Shown here: positions 1,532-29,835 of the stretch, piece by piece
Numbering within the stretch: position 1 is the stretch's first letter
Layout: every line of letters begins with the position of its first letter
NCBI GenBank assembly: GCA_005792635.1
Contig: SXRF01000081.1
Coordinates: 1-42,545 of the forward strand
Source of the DNA: Rickettsiales bacterium
GTDB lineage: Bacteria > Pseudomonadota > Alphaproteobacteria > Rickettsiales > SXRF01
Direction: 5' to 3'
Length of the DNA stretch: 42,545 nt
Translations under genes and position numbers: made by a program
Notes under the pieces: generated by a model
The model's database searches: none
The model's input: the letters and a program-made list of their open reading frames with translations, nothing else
What the model was told of the DNA's origin: nothing

Positions 1532-4500
1532 TTAAAAACCTCCAAGTTCCATCAGCAACTTCCTCACCAAAGCAATCTTTTCCCCGGCGTTTTTCCATTC
1601 ATGGGTGAAGACCAATTTCTGGTCGGGACGGAGTTTTAGGGTTCGTGGGTTGCGCTGAATGTGGCGCAGCAAGGCTTCTGGGTTTGCCACAGCGTTGTTG
1701 TGGAAGCTAATCACCGCGCCTTTTTCGCCAGTGTCCACGCGCTCCACGCCCGCTTTTTTGCACAGCAACTTCAAATTCAGTGTGGTGATTAGGTGTGAAA
1801 CTTCTTCGGGCATCGCGCCAAATCTATCCACCATTTCGGCGGCGAAACTATTTATTTCGTCTTCACTATCCATTTCCGCCACGCGCTTATATAGCCCAAG
1901 CCGTAAGCCCAAATCCCCAACATAAGTTTCAGGAATGAGGACGGAAATTCCGAGATTTATCGTAGGAGAATAGTCGTCAGCGGTCAGCGGTCGGTGGTCA
2001 GGATTCTCTTCTTCACTGTCAGCTGACAACTGACTTCTGATCGCTGCGACAGCCTCCTCTAGCATCTGCTGATACAGCTCAATTCCCACTTCTTTAATGT
2101 GTCCTGATTGTTCCTCGCCAACGAGGTTTCCAAATCCGCGAATGTCCATATCATGGCTGGCGAGGGTAAAGCCCGCGCCGAGTGTATCTAGGGTTTGCAT
2201 AACTTCCAGCCGTTTTGTTGCTTGCTTGGTTAGCTCGCGGTGGTGTGGCAACAGGAAATAAGCATAAGCACGAGTTTTTCCGCGCCCAACCCGCCCGCGC
2301 ATTTGATATAGCTGTGCCAGCCCGAACAAATGAGCGTTGTGGATAATCATGGTGTTGGCGGTTGGAATATCCAGCCCTGACTCAATAATCGCGGTGGAGA
2401 GCAGAATATCATATTTCCCGTCATAAAAATCATTCATCAGCTCGTCTAGTTCGCTGGCGGGAAGTTGCCCGTGGGCGATGGCTATTTTTGCTTCGGGAAT
2501 CAGCTCGGCAAGCTGCCATTTCAGGTCAGCGATATATTTGATGCGCGGTGTCACCACAAAACATTTCCCGCCGCGGTGCAGCTCGCGCTGGATGGCTTCT
2601 TTGATAATCACCGTGTCAAAAGGAATAACGAATGAGCGAACGGCGAGCCTGTCCACAGGTGGCGTGGTGATGAGACTTAAATCACGAACACCAGTCAGAG
2701 CCATTTGCAAAGTGCGCGGAATTGGCGTTGCGGACAATGTCAGCACATGAACATCCGATTTTAGTTCCTTCAGTTTTTCCTTCTGTCCAACGCCGAAATG
2801 CTGCTCCTCATCCACAATCACCAAGCCTAGTCGTGCAAATTTTATGGTTTTGGCGAGTAGCGCGTGCGTGCCGATAACAATATCCACTTTGCCTTCAGCC
2901 AGTTTCTCTTTCGTGTCTTTTTGTTCTTTAGGAGTCACCATCCGCGAAAGCTGGCGCACTACGATATTCGTTCCTGAAAATCTATCACGGAAATTGCGAT
3001 AATGCTGACGAGCTAGCAGAGTGGTGGGGCAGACAATCGCGACTTGCAGAGGCTTATATTCATTGCAAGCGGTGGCGAATGCAGCCCGCAGCGCAACCTC
3101 CGTTTTACCAAAGCCAACATCGCCGCAAATAAGCCTGTCCATTGGTTTGCCGCTTCGTAAATCTTCCAGAACCTCGTCAATCGCTCGTTGTTGATCTTCG
3201 GTTTCAACATACGGAAATCTAGCGCAGAAATCATCATAAGCGATTTTTTGCGCCTCTATTTCTGGTGCTTGTTTTATATGTCGCTCGGCGGCGATTTTAA
3301 GCAAGGCTTCTGCAGCAATTTTTATGCGTTGCTTTAGTTTTGCCTTCCGTGCCTGCCATGACGCACCGCCGAGTTTGTCAAGCTGAGTGCCGTCTTCATC
3401 CAATCCAAATCGTGAAAGGAGTTCTATATTTTCAACGGGCAAAAACAGCTTATCATCGCCAGCATAAACCAGCTTCAGACAATCATGCGCCGCGCCCGAA
3501 ACCGTAAGCGTAATCAGCCCTTCAAAGCGACCAATGCCATGCTCCTTATGCACTAGCAAATCACCCTCAGCAAAACTTGCCGCTTCCTGCATAAAAATTT
3601 CGGAGGATTTTTTCTTTTTCGGAGCGCGGGCGATGCGTTCACCCAGCACATCTTGCTCGCTAAAAATGCGTAAATTTTCCGTTTCAAAACCTTGCTCAAG
3701 CGGAAGAACGCAAAGTCCAATATTTTTGCCTTTTATATTTTTCACTTCGCGCCAGCTATCAATGCGGATAGTGTGGAAATTATGCTCCATCAGCAAGGTT
3801 TGCAAGCGTTCTCGCGTTCCCGCCGAAAAACAGGCAAGCATTATTGCCTTACCTTTTTCTGCTTGATCTTTTAGCTGCATAAAGGGGGTATTATCCGCAT
3901 TTCCTTGGCTGAAGCGCATGGTGGGCTTTAGACCGAGACTCAAACCATGGTTGTCATGCCAGCGAAGGATGGCATCCAGCTCTTTCTTTCCACTAGATGC
4001 CACATCGCTAAGTTTTCCTTGCATCTCGCTGCGCTCGCTGGGAAAACTTGCGTCTGGCATGACAGTAAATGGAGAGAAAATAAGATTATCATGTTCGGCA
4101 AGCAAATTTGCCCAATCATCCTTCATGATAAAAAAGCTATCAGGCGGAATAGGATTATAGATTGTTTCAGTAGCGAAACTATTTTTTTTGCTAGCAGTGG
4201 TGGTGGCAAATTTCCGCGCTTCATAATAGTCAAGGATTGATTCCTGTCGTTCAGCAATCGCACTAGTGGCTTCGCTATCCATGGTTATCAATGCGTTATC
4301 GCAATAGTCAAAAATCGTTTCGGTTGCGTCATAAAATAGCGGCAAAAAATGCTCCATACCGATATGGTTCGCGCCTTCGGAAATCGCTTCATATAGCGGG
4401 TCTTGCTTGCTAATTGCGCCAAATAAATCACGATACCCACTACGGAAATTGGCGATGGTTTTTTCGTTTAGCAAAACCTCGCTCATGGGCAGCAGTGAAA

Positions 4501-5122
4501 AACTTTCAAGTGAGCCGCTGGAAATCTGCGTCATTGGGTCAAATTGTTTGATGCTTTCCACCTCATCACCAAATAAATCAAGGCGCACACCAGCATCCGC
4601 GCCAGAGGGAATTATATCCATAATTCCACCGCGCATCGCGAATTCCCCAGCCTCCATAGCTTTTCCCGCACGGCGATAGCCTTGCTCAAGCAAATAATTG
4701 ACTAGCTCGTCCTGCTTTAATTTTTCGCCTTTTCGCACGGAAAATGATATTTTCTGCATCACCGCGCGAGGGGGCAATTTTTGCAAGGCTGCACTTACAG
4801 TGGTGAGGATTATTTTATGCCCTTTTGCGTTTCCTCTGGCGAGCGTTGCCAAAGTCCGCATCCGCGCCGCCATGATGCTTGGGTGGGGCGATGCGCGGTC
4901 ATAAGGCATACATTCCCAAGCTGGAAAGGCTAAAATCTCCGCGTCAGGTGCGAAAAAAGCCAGTGTGCTGGCTAAAAGTTCCAAATGCCTGTCGCTGGCG
5001 GCGATATGTAAAATAGTTTTCGGCGCGGGCAGCGGCGGCACATTTCCAGAAATTAACCGAGAAATCACAAGACCTTGCGCGTTAGCAGGAACGCCGTACA
5101 GTATGGTGGATAGTTTGTTCAT
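1532..5122 (-). CDS. mfd: Transcription-repair coupling factor
   Basis: 1196 aa; RNAP-interaction-type region (GDLLVHKEHGIGRFEGL), helicase motifs (GDVGFGKTEVALRAAF, DEEQHFGV, LSATPIPRTLQMAL, QMRGRVGR), C-terminal TRCF domain. Confidence 0.97.
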   Translation of the reverse strand: MNKLSTILYGVPANAQGLVISRLISGNVPPLPAPKTILHIAASDRHLELLASTLAFFAPDAEILAFPAWECMPYDRASPHPSIMAARMRTLATLARGNAKGHKIILTTVSAALQKLPPRAVMQKISFSVRKGEKLKQDELVNYLLEQGYRRAGKAMEAGEFAMRGGIMDIIPSGADAGVRLDLFGDEVESIKQFDPMTQISSGSLESFSLLPMSEVLLNEKTIANFRSGYRDLFGAISKQDPLYEAISEGANHIGMEHFLPLFYDATETIFDYCDNALITMDSEATSAIAERQESILDYYEARKFATTTASKKNSFATETIYNPIPPDSFFIMKDDWANLLAEHDNLIFSPFTVMPDASFPSERSEMQGKLSDVASSGKKELDAILRWHDNHGLSLGLKPTMRFSQGNADNTPFMQLKDQAEKGKAIMLACFSAGTRERLQTLLMEHNFHTIRIDSWREVKNIKGKNIGLCVLPLEQGFETENLRIFSEQDVLGERIARAPKKKKSSEIFMQEAASFAEGDLLVHKEHGIGRFEGLITLTVSGAAHDCLKLVYAGDDKLFLPVENIELLSRFGLDEDGTQLDKLGGASWQARKAKLKQRIKIAAEALLKIAAERHIKQAPEIEAQKIAYDDFCARFPYVETEDQQRAIDEVLEDLRSGKPMDRLICGDVGFGKTEVALRAAFATACNEYKPLQVAIVCPTTLLARQHYRNFRDRFSGTNIVVRQLSRMVTPKEQKDTKEKLAEGKVDIVIGTHALLAKTIKFARLGLVIVDEEQHFGVGQKEKLKELKSDVHVLTLSATPIPRTLQMALTGVRDLSLITTPPVDRLAVRSFVIPFDTVIIKEAIQRELHRGGKCFVVTPRIKYIADLKWQLAELIPEAKIAIAHGQLPASELDELMNDFYDGKYDILLSTAIIESGLDIPTANTMIIHNAHLFGLAQLYQMRGRVGRGKTRAYAYFLLPHHRELTKQATKRLEVMQTLDTLGAGFTLASHDMDIRGFGNLVGEEQSGHIKEVGIELYQQMLEEAVAAIRSQLSADSEEENPDHRPLTADDYSPTINLGISVLIPETYVGDLGLRLGLYKRVAEMDSEDEINSFAAEMVDRFGAMPEEVSHLITTLNLKLLCKKAGVERVDTGEKGAVISFHNNAVANPEALLRHIQRNPRTLKLRPDQKLVFTHEWKNAGEKIALVRKLLMELGGF
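3953..4063. repeat. Palindromic element inserted in frame within mfd (111 bp = 37 codons)
   Basis: Perfect 10-bp terminal inverted repeats GTCATGCCAG (3953-3962) / CTGGCATGAC (4054-4063), same ends as the intergenic family A elements; translated on the minus strand as VMPDASFPSERSEMQGKLSDVASSGKKELDAILRWHD. Confidence 0.85.
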
Positions 5123-8047: not shown

Positions 8048-8194
8048 TAGCCCTTAACGAATAGTTGGCAGTACTTTGTCATGCCAGCGAAGGCTGGCAT
8101 CCATGCCTAACCACAAGCTTTATAGCCAGTTGCATGGCATAGATTCCGCCCTTCGGCGGAATGACGATAATCTCTAACTATTCATTAATGGCTA
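8048..8194. repeat. Family A palindromic element (core 8078-8165), extended arms TAGCCCTTAACGAATAGTT.../...AACTATTCATTAATGGCTA
   Basis: Core GTCATGCCAGCGAAGGCTGGCAT...ATTCCGCCCTTCGGCGGAATGAC; close to the reverse complement of 17258-17420. Confidence 0.85.
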
Positions 8195-13567: not shown

Positions 13568-13655
13568 GTCATGCCAGCGTAGGCAGGCATCCATGCCACG
13601 CAACTGGCTATAACGCTTGTGGTTTGGCATGGATACCGCCCTTCGGCGGTATGAC
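13568..13655. repeat. Family A palindromic element, 88 bp
   Basis: GTCATGCCAGCGTAGGCAGGCATCCATGCC...GGCATGGATACCGCCCTTCGGCGGTATGAC. Confidence 0.85.
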
Positions 13656-17257: not shown

Positions 17258-17420
17258 TAGCCATTAATAGTTAGCGTTATCGTCATTCCGCCCCCGTTCT
17301 TCAACGGGGCAGGCTGTGGGCGGAATCTATGCCTGCAACTAGCTATAACGCTTGTGGTTAGGCATGGATGCCAGCCTTCGCTGGCATGACAAAGTGCTGC
17401 TAACTATTCGTTAGTGGCTA
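17258..17420. repeat. Family A element with extended arms (core 17282-17390)
   Basis: TAGCCATTAATAGTTAGCG...GTCATTCCGCC...CTGGCATGAC...GCTAACTATTCGTTAGTGGCTA; near reverse complement of 8048-8194. Confidence 0.85.
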
Positions 17421-19821: not shown

Positions 19822-21351
19822 CTATTTGCTTATGCGAAGGCTCGCCAGTGAATCGCCGATTGTTTTGAAGGCTGTGTTCAAATCTGCGGTGGTTGGGCTG
19901 TTAAAATAATATTCTGGCTTGCTGGCGCAGGCTTGCAACATATTTTTTGCGGTTGTGCCGATGCTTGTGCCAAGGGCGATGGTGTAAATAATAACACCGC
20001 TGTTATTCGCCTTGATATTGGCGCAGACGGCGGCGGTGCGCGTGTTCAGCTCGGTTTCGCCGTTGGTGCAAGCCGAAGTCGGGCAGGTGTTCGCGCCAAG
20101 TTGCCCAGAGTTATACATACCATAAGCCGTATAATCTGTTCTGGTTAAGGTGTTGTCACCATCCGTCATCAGGATTATCGCCTTATTCATCAGCGGCGTG
20201 TTATAGGCAAGTGGCAAGCTGTTGGTGTTCATCTCGCCACCCCATAAATTTTGCCATGCTGGAGAAATCATCCGCCAACCCCAAGCCAGCCCGATATTAA
20301 TATGGGTATAACCGCCCGCTACCATGCCATTAATAGCGTTGGTTATCGTGGTGCGGCTGGCGGTCATTGGCGTTAATGCTTGCGACGGGCAGCCAAGATT
20401 TGGTCCACGAGAACTGCTTATGTTATAGGTTGTGACGCCGTAGCTGGTACTCTTCCAGTCGTTATTGCTGTTGTCTGGCGCGTAATATTTGGGAAATAGG
20501 CGCGTGGCAGGTATGGTATCAGTTATGTCATATTGCGGTGTGAGTGTGCCGTTGCTGCGCGATTCAACACAGCCGCCCCAACTGGTTGTTCCCCAATTAA
20601 GGGCTGTGCTGCTTGTCCAGCTGGCGCGGCTAGTGCCGATATTTACTGCTTGCGAAAATGGCACTAACCCAATCCATAAATGCGGTATGGTTTCCTTGTC
20701 GCCATAAAGAATGTTAACCAAAGAATTGGCGGCGGTTCTTGCCGCAGAAATCTTGCTAACCCCGCCACCAGCTGATTGCGTCATTGAGCCAGTATTGTCC
20801 ATCACCAAAACCAGCTCTAGCCCTTTGCTACTGCGGGTTACTTCGGAAGTTGCGCCGACGGCTATGCTTTGTTTGCCGACAAGCTTCATAAAAGTTGTCG
20901 GCACTGTGCCGCTCACCGTCAAAGTAAATACGCTATTATCCGCATTGGGCGTAACGGTAACTGTACCAATACTCGCCCCCATATAGCCTGCGGGAAAATT
21001 GGCGTTGAAATATTTAGTGGCTTCGCTGTTGACATCAATGGTGTTGGAAGTTGCCGCGGCTGCTAGCCCAGCGTTATCAAGGGCATTGGTAAGGCGCGAC
21101 TGCACAAGCTGCGCCCGTCCAAGGTCAATTGCCGCACCAACAGAAGACATCATGGCAAATAATCCCAGCCCAATAATAGGTAGAGCAGAGCCGCGCTTAT
21201 CACGCAAAATATTTTTTATATATAAATTACTCGTCATCCCGTGCTTGCCACGGGATCTAGAGCTACAAATTCCGCCATTGGTTTTATCCCTAGATACCGC
21301 ATCAAGTGCGGTATGACAGCGACTTGAGATAGTGTTTTCTAACTGTTCCAT
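19822..21351 (-). CDS. TadG-like pilus assembly protein with von Willebrand A domain
   Basis: N-terminal RGSALPIIGLGLFAMMSSVGAAIDLGRAQLV; vWA motifs LELVLVMDNTGSM and IILMTDGDN; SD AAGGAG upstream of ATG at 21351. Confidence 0.85.
   Translation of the reverse strand: MEQLENTISSRCHTALDAVSRDKTNGGICSSRSRGKHGMTSNLYIKNILRDKRGSALPIIGLGLFAMMSSVGAAIDLGRAQLVQSRLTNALDNAGLAAAATSNTIDVNSEATKYFNANFPAGYMGASIGTVTVTPNADNSVFTLTVSGTVPTTFMKLVGKQSIAVGATSEVTRSSKGLELVLVMDNTGSMTQSAGGGVSKISAARTAANSLVNILYGDKETIPHLWIGLVPFSQAVNIGTSRASWTSSTALNWGTTSWGGCVESRSNGTLTPQYDITDTIPATRLFPKYYAPDNSNNDWKSTSYGVTTYNISSSRGPNLGCPSQALTPMTASRTTITNAINGMVAGGYTHINIGLAWGWRMISPAWQNLWGGEMNTNSLPLAYNTPLMNKAIILMTDGDNTLTRTDYTAYGMYNSGQLGANTCPTSACTNGETELNTRTAAVCANIKANNSGVIIYTIALGTSIGTTAKNMLQACASKPEYYFNSPTTADLNTAFKTIGDSLASLRISK
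21233..21317. repeat. Family B element (85 bp) inside the tadG-like coding sequence
   Basis: GTCATCCCGTGCTTGCCACGGGATCTAGAGCTACAAATTCCGCCATTGGTTTTATCCCTAGATACCGCATCAAGTGCGGTATGAC; same length and centre as 24606-24690. Confidence 0.88.
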
Positions 21352-21929
21352 AACAACTTCTCCTTTTGTATAATCGGTGAAAGCCAACCGAGTGTTGTTA
21401 GGCTTCCAAGGCGTGGTTTATAGATGCTGGTGCGGTAAATTTGATTGTTGTTGTAGAGGTAGCCATTTAGTATTGGTTTATAGGCGTAGAACACTTCCGC
21501 AACGATTACTGTTTCGCCTGCGGCAATGGTGAAATTCGCGGGCATGGTCGCCGCACCGCCGCTTACGCCGATATGGCTGGTTTGTATTGTTCCCGTGCTT
21601 CGATATTGCCAATTGACCACAGGCGCATTTGCACCTGTTTTGGTAACTGATGAAATAATTGCATAGCCATCAGCTGCAAAATCATAAGGCTGTAGCACTT
21701 GTCCTGCTGCTGTTATAATCTGCCCTAATTGTGTGCTGGTTATGGTGTCTGACTGTGAAGTTACATCCGAAAGAGTGGCGGCGACTCGCTCCACTTTTTG
21801 TGTGATTAGCACATAGCGTGCGCCGTCCACCGTTCCAAACAGCAATAAAGCCAGTAAAGGAAATGACAGCGCGAATTCAATCGCCGCCACACCGCCATTT
21901 GCAAAAATAAATTTTTTAATAAGGTTCAT
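21339..21929 (-). CDS. TadE-like pseudopilin
   Basis: FANGGVAAIEFALSFPLLALLLFGTVDGARYVLITQKVERVAATLSDVTSQ; overlaps the tadG-like start by 13 bp. Confidence 0.85.
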   Translation of the reverse strand: MNLIKKFIFANGGVAAIEFALSFPLLALLLFGTVDGARYVLITQKVERVAATLSDVTSQSDTITSTQLGQIITAAGQVLQPYDFAADGYAIISSVTKTGANAPVVNWQYRSTGTIQTSHIGVSGGAATMPANFTIAAGETVIVAEVFYAYKPILNGYLYNNNQIYRTSIYKPRLGSLTTLGWLSPIIQKEKLLWNS

Positions 21930-24605: not shown

Positions 24606-24690
24606 GTCATCCCCGCTTTATGCGGGGATCTAGGGATAAAACCAATGACAGAATTTGTTGCTCTAGATCCCCGCATAAAGCGGGGATGAC
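24606..24690. repeat. Family B element (85 bp), between convergent genes
   Basis: GTCATCCCCGCTTTATGCGGGGATCTAGGGATAAAACCAATGACAGAATTTGTTGCTCTAGATCCCCGCATAAAGCGGGGATGAC, near-perfect palindromic ends. Confidence 0.9.
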
Positions 24691-26679: not shown

Positions 26680-26767
26680 GTCATTCCGCCGAAGGGCGGA
26701 ATCTATGCCAAAACTTTAGCGTTGCAGCTAATTTGTTGGCATGGATACCAGCCTCCGCTGGTATGAC
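26680..26767. repeat. Family A palindromic element, 88 bp
   Basis: GTCATTCCGCCGAAGGGCGGAATCTATGCC...GGCATGGATACCAGCCTCCGCTGGTATGAC. Confidence 0.85.
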
Positions 26768-27774: not shown

Positions 27775-29835
27775 CTATTTCCGTAAATCTTCGCCAATTA
27801 ACAGCTTGTTTTTGCCGTCAGTTGCTTCAATTTGGCGATATATTTGCAAATTTTCGATTACGCGCTGTACATAATTTCTGGTTTCGCTGAAGGGTATCGC
27901 CTCAATCCAATCTACAGCTTTATCCAAGCTTCCCGTTGGTTTTCCAATCTTTTTTGTCCATTTATAGACATTGCCCAAGCCAGCATTATAGGCGGCGATC
28001 GCCATTACCAGTGAACCATCGTAATTATCGATAAGCCGCGCTAGATATAGGCTGCCGAGCCGCATATTATATTCTGTCTGATATAATCCATCCTCTATAA
28101 AGCCAATCTCGTTCTTTTGCGCCACTTCCTTGGCGGTTGAGGGCAATAATTGCATCAAACCAAGCGCACCAGACGGGCTTTTGGCGTATCTATCAAACTC
28201 GCTTTCTTGGCGGGTTATAGCAAGGGTGAGCGCACGGGGTAGCACGCCATCGGGCGTTTTTGTGGTTGGATAACCCGCTGAAATAAGGACGATATTATTC
28301 TGAAAAGCCTTTTTTGCCGCCCGCACGCTAAGATATGGCTTTCCTGCCTCTAAGCCCAGCTCGCTGGCGATGCTGGCATTTTCCGCTTCGCCGTCCTCTA
28401 CCAAGCCATTTATCAATTTTCCCGCCAAGTCTTTTTCGCCATAAGCGAGGCAAAGCTTTATGGCTTTTACAAGGCTTCGCGCCATAAATTCCGCGCGTTT
28501 TTCATCGCTTATAATTGGTGGGGCGGGCAGTTTCAGCGGTGCATCGCCATATAATGCAAGGCTGGCGAGCTGTCCGTAAAAGGCGGTGGGATATTTTGCT
28601 GCTTTTTCAAGCCAGATTTTTTCTGATTGTGCGTCGCCCATTACGCGTGCCGCCCGCGCCGCGCCATAAGCCGCCCGCGCTTTGCTCACTGGGTATTTTA
28701 CCTCGTCAAACATGTGATAAAAAACCGAGTAAGCGTCTTTTGCGCGGTTTTGGTAGCGCAGGAAAATCCACCCGCGTAGCCAGCTAGCATCGGCGAATTC
28801 CTTGCCTTTTTCCTGCCCGTGATTGGCGAGCAACAAGGAAGCCAGTGCGATTTTTCTATCATCCAGCGCGTCGCGGATTTGTCGCTCGCGGTATTTCCAC
28901 CATTTTTCAGGATATGGCACTTTTTTCGGCGCAGCCAGCAACATTTCGCGCACCATGGCGTTATTATCATGCTTGGCATTAAAAACAATTTTGTCATACA
29001 GTAGGCCAGCGTCTTTTTTTAGGCTGGCGGGCAGTTTTGTCAGCAGCTTATCCGAAGTTTTTTTCGCGTCTTTTTTTAGGCTGGCGGGCAGTTTTGTCAG
29101 CAGCTTATCCGAAGTTTTTTTCGCGTCTTTTTTATCCGCTTGCAAGGCGATGCGGGCTTTATATAGCTTTATATGGTTATCATCAACTCGTGCAAACATG
29201 CGCTCGGCAGCGGAGGTTTTTCCTTCCCACAGCAACCTGTCGGTGCGGGCAATATCGTCTTCTTTGCGTAACATCGCGCCATAATTGCTGAGCAGATTTT
29301 TTTCTTGCTCTTCATCAAAATCGCCATCACGCCACGCTTCGCGCACTAGCGATTTCATCATATCTTCTGGTTGTTTTGCGCCATGCTGCAAAGCCATGAG
29401 CAGCGCGATTTTACCAACGCCCGTAATCGGCGTGTCAGTCTTGAAAAAATTAATAATTTCATCATCACTAAGACTCGCCGCAGACATCGCCATTTCGGCG
29501 CGAATACGAAGCTTTTTTTGCTCTGACCAGTCGGGATGTGCGGCGATAAATTGTTTTATTTCGGCGAAGCTCGCCCCAGATTCTTTATCCAGCAGATATT
29601 GCCACTCGACCAGAGTTTGTAATGCGGGTTCATTGCTGCGTTTGGCGTGTAAAAGCGCGTCATTCCACTGTCTGCGGCTGGCGAATAGAAACGCGCTGTT
29701 AATATGCTCGTTTTTCTCCGCTAGGTTTTCTGGTGAATTACTTGCCAAATTTTCTGTCGGCGCAACCATAGTCTGCGCGAGGCTGGGCGCAGAAATAAAA
29801 CAAATAGTGGCGAGTAGTAGGATATGAAAATACAT
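27775..29835 (-). CDS. slt: Soluble lytic murein transglycosylase (Slt70 family)
   Basis: C-terminal LALTRQESEFDRYAKSPSGALGLMQLLPSTAKEVA...YNMRLGSLYLARLIDNYDGSLVMAIAAYNAGLGNV; signal peptide. Confidence 0.93.
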   Translation of the reverse strand: MYFHILLLATICFISAPSLAQTMVAPTENLASNSPENLAEKNEHINSAFLFASRRQWNDALLHAKRSNEPALQTLVEWQYLLDKESGASFAEIKQFIAAHPDWSEQKKLRIRAEMAMSAASLSDDEIINFFKTDTPITGVGKIALLMALQHGAKQPEDMMKSLVREAWRDGDFDEEQEKNLLSNYGAMLRKEDDIARTDRLLWEGKTSAAERMFARVDDNHIKLYKARIALQADKKDAKKTSDKLLTKLPASLKKDAKKTSDKLLTKLPASLKKDAGLLYDKIVFNAKHDNNAMVREMLLAAPKKVPYPEKWWKYRERQIRDALDDRKIALASLLLANHGQEKGKEFADASWLRGWIFLRYQNRAKDAYSVFYHMFDEVKYPVSKARAAYGAARAARVMGDAQSEKIWLEKAAKYPTAFYGQLASLALYGDAPLKLPAPPIISDEKRAEFMARSLVKAIKLCLAYGEKDLAGKLINGLVEDGEAENASIASELGLEAGKPYLSVRAAKKAFQNNIVLISAGYPTTKTPDGVLPRALTLAITRQESEFDRYAKSPSGALGLMQLLPSTAKEVAQKNEIGFIEDGLYQTEYNMRLGSLYLARLIDNYDGSLVMAIAAYNAGLGNVYKWTKKIGKPTGSLDKAVDWIEAIPFSETRNYVQRVIENLQIYRQIEATDGKNKLLIGEDLRK
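29011..29124. repeat. Perfect tandem duplication of a 57-bp unit inside slt
   Basis: Units 29011-29067 and 29068-29124 are identical; encode DAKKTSDKLLTKLPASLKK twice. Confidence 0.95.

Follow-up and report, generated by a model that had tools for sequence, protein, structure and literature searches.

The window analysed here, a contig of 42,545 nucleotides (SXRF01000081.1; contig C63 of host genome G000 in our numbering), came from a 1.95 Mb Rickettsiales genome in 128 contigs, and encoded on its minus strand, at positions 1532-5122, the transcription-repair coupling factor Mfd. The mfd reading frame was open throughout, and its product of 1196 amino acids contained the UvrB-interaction, CarD/RID, MFD_D3, helicase and TRCF domains (Pfam). 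Within mfd, positions 3953-4063 of the minus strand held a palindromic element of 111 bp, assigned to a group that we call family B. A first, sequence-only reading of this DNA had described the segment as 37 extra codons translated without a frameshift, and recomputation returned the same coordinates, perfect 10-bp inverted ends, frame and peptide: codon 354 started at base 4063, the element exactly filled codons 354-390, and the corresponding residues read VMPDASFPSERSEMQGKLSDVASSGKKELDAILRWHD. On the minus strand the element ran from GTCATGCCAG to CTGGCATGAC, with a TGTC tag at both outer ends. Its right end (3953-3978, plus strand) formed a CGTC-type repetitive extragenic palindrome (REP) with stem ATGCCAGC/GATGGCAT (one mismatch), a 4-nt loop and a CCA tail. 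The left REP of this head-to-head dimer (3992-4063, minus strand), delimited from sequence, fold and family alignment, had a stem of 6-7 bp (ATGCCA/TGGCAT) and a loop expanded to about 50 nt, in which a further hairpin, AAGTTTTCC/GGAAAACTT, was nested. Folded as single-stranded RNA, the element scored z = -6.4 against shuffled sequences. No Rfam family was matched anywhere in the window; for want of such a match, and as 37 amino acids leave no room for an intein, a self-splicing intron or intein was ruled out.

Comparison with relatives identified the segment as an insertion specific to the host lineage. Alignments with the Mfd proteins of three congeners stopped at residues 353-354 and restarted at 391-393, and the 37 residues were absent from these three and from all other Mfds aligned, which is the gap that the sequence-only reading had anticipated. 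(Among congener records, the metagenome-assembled genome (MAG) ssMAG-31, deposited as 'Rickettsiales bacterium', was the only one to bear an order name.) An AlphaFold model of Mfd residues 1-560, built with 24 related Mfds, had a mean predicted local distance difference test score (pLDDT) of 84.6 and matched the N-terminal region of Escherichia coli Mfd (3hjh) with a TM-score of 0.83 by target length. pLDDT fell below 50 at residues 356-378 and 381-391, in the stretch that leads from a confidently predicted strand (346-350) to the beginning of D3, so that in the model the insert is probably a loose loop in a variable interdomain linker beside D3 and not part of a conserved Mfd domain. Neither of the two outcomes that the sequence-only reading had named as refuting it, the same residues in relatives or a conserved domain at the site, was seen. 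The insert would be tolerated for three reasons: its length is divisible by three, it is open in that frame and it lies in a flexible linker. The host protein is probably an Mfd that is normal apart from a loose 37-residue loop, presumably near neutral in function. The Mfd of a more distant genome, UBA6187 (L045), carried a different insert of its own (about 60 residues, PSPTGRGLGRG...) slightly past this site, with palindromic DNA of another type.

The element belonged to a family dispersed through the host genome. A second full-length copy, intergenic on contig C83, was 84% identical (E 1e-29), and 19 more partial matches were found, mostly to one end. The terminal hairpin pattern occurred 108 times in the host genome (0 for the reversed control pattern), and 25, 33 and 1 times in the congeners. 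Across the order, 79 of 131 genomes contained it. The other copies, the count of hairpins in the host and the fold of the mfd copy together exclude a chance resemblance. Copies were inspected place by place, covering all but about 7 of the 108 hairpins, and were sorted into families A (87/88 bp, two hairpins), B (about 111 bp), C (85 bp) and D (66/68 bp), with lone hairpins and a class of long elements (344-375 bp) besides. Family B had five members of 111-115 bp, comprising the mfd and C83 copies and three others of 112-115 bp; the four copies other than that in mfd contained stops in the mfd frame and had lengths that were not multiples of three, defects from which the mfd copy was free. Several copies had REP loops enlarged by further palindromic sequence, as in the left REP of the mfd copy. 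Four family A elements lay in the window, at 8078-8165 (88 bp, intergenic), 13568-13655 (88 bp), 17282-17390 (intergenic, reaching 109 bp because one REP loop was expanded) and 26680-26767 (88 bp, intergenic). These four had been credited with the same ends as the mfd element; they are indeed related and some end in GTCATGCCAG, but they represent family A, not B, and their other ends read GTCATTCCGC, GTCATACCAG or GTCATACCGC. Such copies bear on the notion that the 37 residues are simply a native, lineage-specific Mfd linker. Linker length does vary among relatives, but all congeners lack the residues, similar elements occur in unrelated genes, and the DNA palindrome is common to intergenic copies of the family, whose existence already refutes a native linker; we regard this explanation as scarcely credible.

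Further in-frame copies, for which the sequence-only reading had suggested a genome-wide search, were present in three host genes, one of YfiH type (insert of 66 bp), one of CysG-N type (68 bp with one added base) and one resembling COX1 (45 bp); genes were identified by Pfam, the COX1 match being slightly below the cut-off. Orthologues in the congeners lacked these inserts except for cysG-N of congener G003, where the same loop (CHASEGWHP) held a hairpin of another sort; yfiH was not found in G003. Copies also occurred in frame in other relatives: in G007, a genome of the same family, the cysG-N loop held one more, again different element and the COX1-like site one of 66 bp; one and the same loop of CtaA was struck in three genomes; and G003 and G001 each had two such elements in IleRS. 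The repeated hits look like independent insertions into permissive loops, or may alternatively reflect one ancient insertion followed by replacement; both possibilities were left open for Rickettsia (PMC3767692). Same-loop insertions in CysG-N, CtaA and COX1-like proteins across genomes provide natural replicates of where proteins tolerate new sequence and of the way in which conserved enzymes gain residues from selfish DNA. They also speak to whether a repeat was misjoined into mfd during assembly. Repeats are often break or join points in draft MAGs such as that of the host, but a misjoin would seldom leave correct flanks and an intact reading frame on either side of a 111-bp insert, and the same kind of in-frame event was seen in several genes and independent MAGs, making an artefact very improbable, if slightly less so than a native linker. 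IleRS contained other segments as well: two of 37 and 30 amino acids in the host (L258, contig C105), unseen in relatives and with no obvious palindromes; an in-frame DUF559 endonuclease of about 112 amino acids between CCCTCTCCC-type palindromes in G007 (L256); and an in-frame GNAT acetyltransferase-like segment in G019 (L260).

Palindromic elements of this habit were reportedly described in Rickettsia by Ogata et al. in 2000 and 2002 (Rickettsia palindromic elements, RPE) and are said to have been found in Wolbachia by Ogata et al. in 2005, the latter sharing with the mfd element that they are coding-tolerant palindromes in a rickettsial genus. The hallmarks of RPE, namely in-frame insertion into conserved genes and a predicted loop location (pLDDT <50), were present here. 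RPE-4, RPE-6 and RPE-7 are likewise short palindromes ending in ATGAC and translated in frame inside conserved proteins, and different RPE lie near the same site in orthologues (PMC3767692). The mfd element comes from another lineage, and its likeness in sequence is to the ATGAC ends of the published description. RPE-4 and RPE-6 of R. conorii belong, together with Neisseria dRS3, to the CGTC-tagged REP superfamily, which comprises families CGTC-1 to CGTC-4, is commonest in Alphaproteobacteria and has some copies in repair genes, while the palindromic element of the Wolbachia symbiont of Brugia is unrelated to CGTC repeats (PMC3733652, 2013). CGTC REPs are defined by an unpaired CGTC (or TGTC/CCTC) tag, a stem of 8-9 bp beginning with AT, a loop of 4-5 nt and a CCA-like tail (PMC3733652). 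Most other copies in the host genome had such stems, loops and tails; in the mfd copy the right REP conformed with one mismatch and the left REP deviated, its loop expanded to about 50 nt. Head-to-head dimers with tags outside were seen among the genome's copies, their dispersed, multicopy state (108 hairpins, control 0) resembled that of the superfamily, and in-frame copies in repair genes were common to both. Judged by its tag, its head-to-head arrangement and the stem and loop of its right REP, the mfd element is a member of the CGTC-tagged REP superfamily, so that its relation to RPE probably exceeds the analogy first suggested. The proposal of an RPE-like, coding-tolerant element in another lineage is thus borne out by the evidence for insertion, the other in-frame copies and CGTC REP membership, and the insert in mfd is a further case of a known phenomenon.

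The long elements suggested how such a family might move. Three REP-bounded elements of 344-375 bp in the host genome each contained one open reading frame (ORF) of about 95 amino acids matching the GIY-YIG domain (PF01541). Adding homologues from a protein search of 55 genomes, we found REPs bracketing 24 of 67 GIY-YIG loci (66 distinct, one place occurring twice) compared with 1 of 2834 control windows and 0 of 971 windows elsewhere in the same loci, windows that overlap and are not independent; a locus counted as bracketed when REPs lay no more than 150 bp away on both sides, tags outward. Three of the 24 were known beforehand, and without them the count was 21/64. When loops of up to 30 nt were allowed, 29 of 67 loci were bracketed, with the control still at 1/2834. 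None of the host genome's four GIY-YIG genes of this type lacked bracketing REPs, which in one case had enlarged loops. The units, 344-463 bp long, consisted of two matched inverted REPs around the ORF with their tags outward, and paired stems agreed at 5.7 of 6 positions within a unit versus 3.1 between units (0 of 20,000 permutations as good). Of 60 terminal bases, family A had as many as 59 in common with the unit on contig C29, and one family D copy had 57-58 in common with units on C25 and in G001; both families look like internally deleted derivatives of GIY-YIG units. Two units had unusual surroundings: in G020 (L271, contig C8) a REP-bracketed GIY-YIG ORF continued in frame through the downstream REP into an apparent glutamate synthase start (an open frame of 1609 amino acids), and in G003 (L203/L277, contig C22) a unit directly adjoined the cysG-N gene that bears an in-frame hairpin.

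Similar arrangements occurred outside the order. CGTC hairpins flanked 8 of 14 inspected homologues from a plasmid collection, a set for which there was no control; these were from Azospirillum, Aeromonas, Neorhizobium, two Shinella, Rhizobium, Sphingobium and Neisseria, the hairpins in Neisseria being about 170-240 bp away. A Novosphingobium homologue had an inverted repeat of 31 bp starting with CGTCG. Sphingobium strains that lack the gene had a lone REP or other palindromes in its position, which fits either insertion of the gene into a REP or collapse to one. In Neisseria, dRS3 and the Neisseria intergenic mosaic elements also have CGTC-1 type hairpins (as classified in PMC3733652) at the bounds of short repeat units; they differ in forming large clusters, and the single GIY-YIG gene inspected there had dRS3-like hairpins only at the distance given above. 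A parallel in layout is the REPtron, in which a REP-associated tyrosine transposase (RAYT), a Y1 HUH enzyme, is encoded between inverted GTAG REPs and accompanied by many non-autonomous REP copies. Here, however, the small nuclease is of the GIY-YIG type, the tag is CGTC instead of GTAG, and the unit has no Y1 gene; REPtron identity, defined by a GTAG tag and an adjacent Y1 RAYT, was rejected. So was a Y1 or RAYT enzyme as the mover, the single Y1 gene of the host genome being IS200-like, with its own ends, and not bracketed by REPs.

We propose that the 111 bp in mfd represent a CGTC-tagged REP element in non-autonomous form, dimeric and head-to-head in the manner of RPE-4/6, and that the GIY-YIG endonucleases encoded by longer members of the family (about 360 bp, with the gene enclosed by two inverted REPs) probably act in trans on REP hairpins and so spread it. 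The best explanation as a whole, to which we give a probability of roughly 0.7, is that a REP element inserted into mfd after the host species diverged from its congeners, the family probably being spread by a GIY-YIG nuclease in trans. Mobility, and nuclease action on REPs including the mfd copy, we infer from anatomy and association. Since CGTC REPs were reported without a dedicated transposase, and with no Y1 association (PMC3733652), the nuclease encoded between matched REPs becomes a named candidate for the enzyme that spreads RPE-4/6-type and other CGTC palindromes. A more general form, in which CGTC REPs, including RPE-4/6-type coding palindromes, are non-autonomous copies of a class of minimal mobile element of about 350-460 bp whose GIY-YIG nuclease recognises its own matched hairpins and drives their spread, also into coding genes, we consider evenly poised. 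The joining of a GIY-YIG gene and matched CGTC REPs into a unit appears to be new: a literature search, which most subscription journals lay beyond, found no report linking GIY-YIG with REP, RPE, miniature inverted-repeat transposable elements or CGTC repeats.

Several observations weigh against this explanation. The loop remaining in the host Mfd was 4 codons shorter than the congener loop, so that a small deletion or ordinary loop variation came with the insert, and loop length at the site varies naturally among relatives. No target-site duplication was visible at the mfd, yfiH or COX1-like sites, no transposition was observed, and no clean empty site was found for a GIY-YIG unit, relatives in Sphingobium holding palindromes or other sequence and those in Azospirillum differing around the site, so that neither site gave an exact point of insertion. 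About half of the clear GIY-YIG homologues lacked bracketing REPs by the test used. The weakest step is the link from the nuclease to the mfd copy, which is made through the REP end, because the host genome yielded no GIY-YIG unit ending as family B does and family B has only the REP hairpin in common with the units; a unit with the same GTCATGCCAGC stem was present in another genome of the order (G031).

GIY-YIG enzymes are well-known homing nucleases, and the insertion could accordingly be RPE-like while the nuclease is not the mover: a small selfish gene might collect REPs around it that act as targets or as signals ending transcription, or its nuclease might home into REPs spread otherwise, for example by a Y1 transposase. 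The homologues without clear REPs agree with this alternative, as does the lone REP in a gene-less Sphingobium strain, which is expected if the gene entered a pre-existing REP; the one Y1 transposase of the host genome, moreover, lies about 60 bp from a family A copy. Yet that transposase has the appearance of an entire IS200 carrying hairpins of its own, a search for Y1 association of CGTC REPs found none (PMC3733652), and the two REPs of a unit match in stem and lie within tens of bases of the ORF with tags outward, the unit length staying at 344-463 bp. We therefore treat a passive or homing role as a serious possibility, though the less probable one, and prefer spread by the GIY-YIG nuclease.

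Other repeats and insertions were noted in passing. DUF559 was rejected as a partner of CGTC REPs, its sole host copy lying in recG between palindromes of another repeat type; there, an ORF of 879 amino acids (L264, contig C66, 1213-1515) contained what appears to be a DUF559 endonuclease domain, in frame and flanked by palindromic arms of the CCCTCCCCC type, and a long G tract at the locus makes an assembly problem possible. Two family C elements of 85 bp lay in the window, one at 24606-24690 with GTCATCCCCGC ends and CTAG adjoining the stem, the other at 21233-21317, immediately upstream of where the ORF at 19822-21387 (minus strand) probably begins. At 29009-29122, inside the ORF at 27775-29835 (minus strand), a 57-bp unit was perfectly duplicated in tandem.
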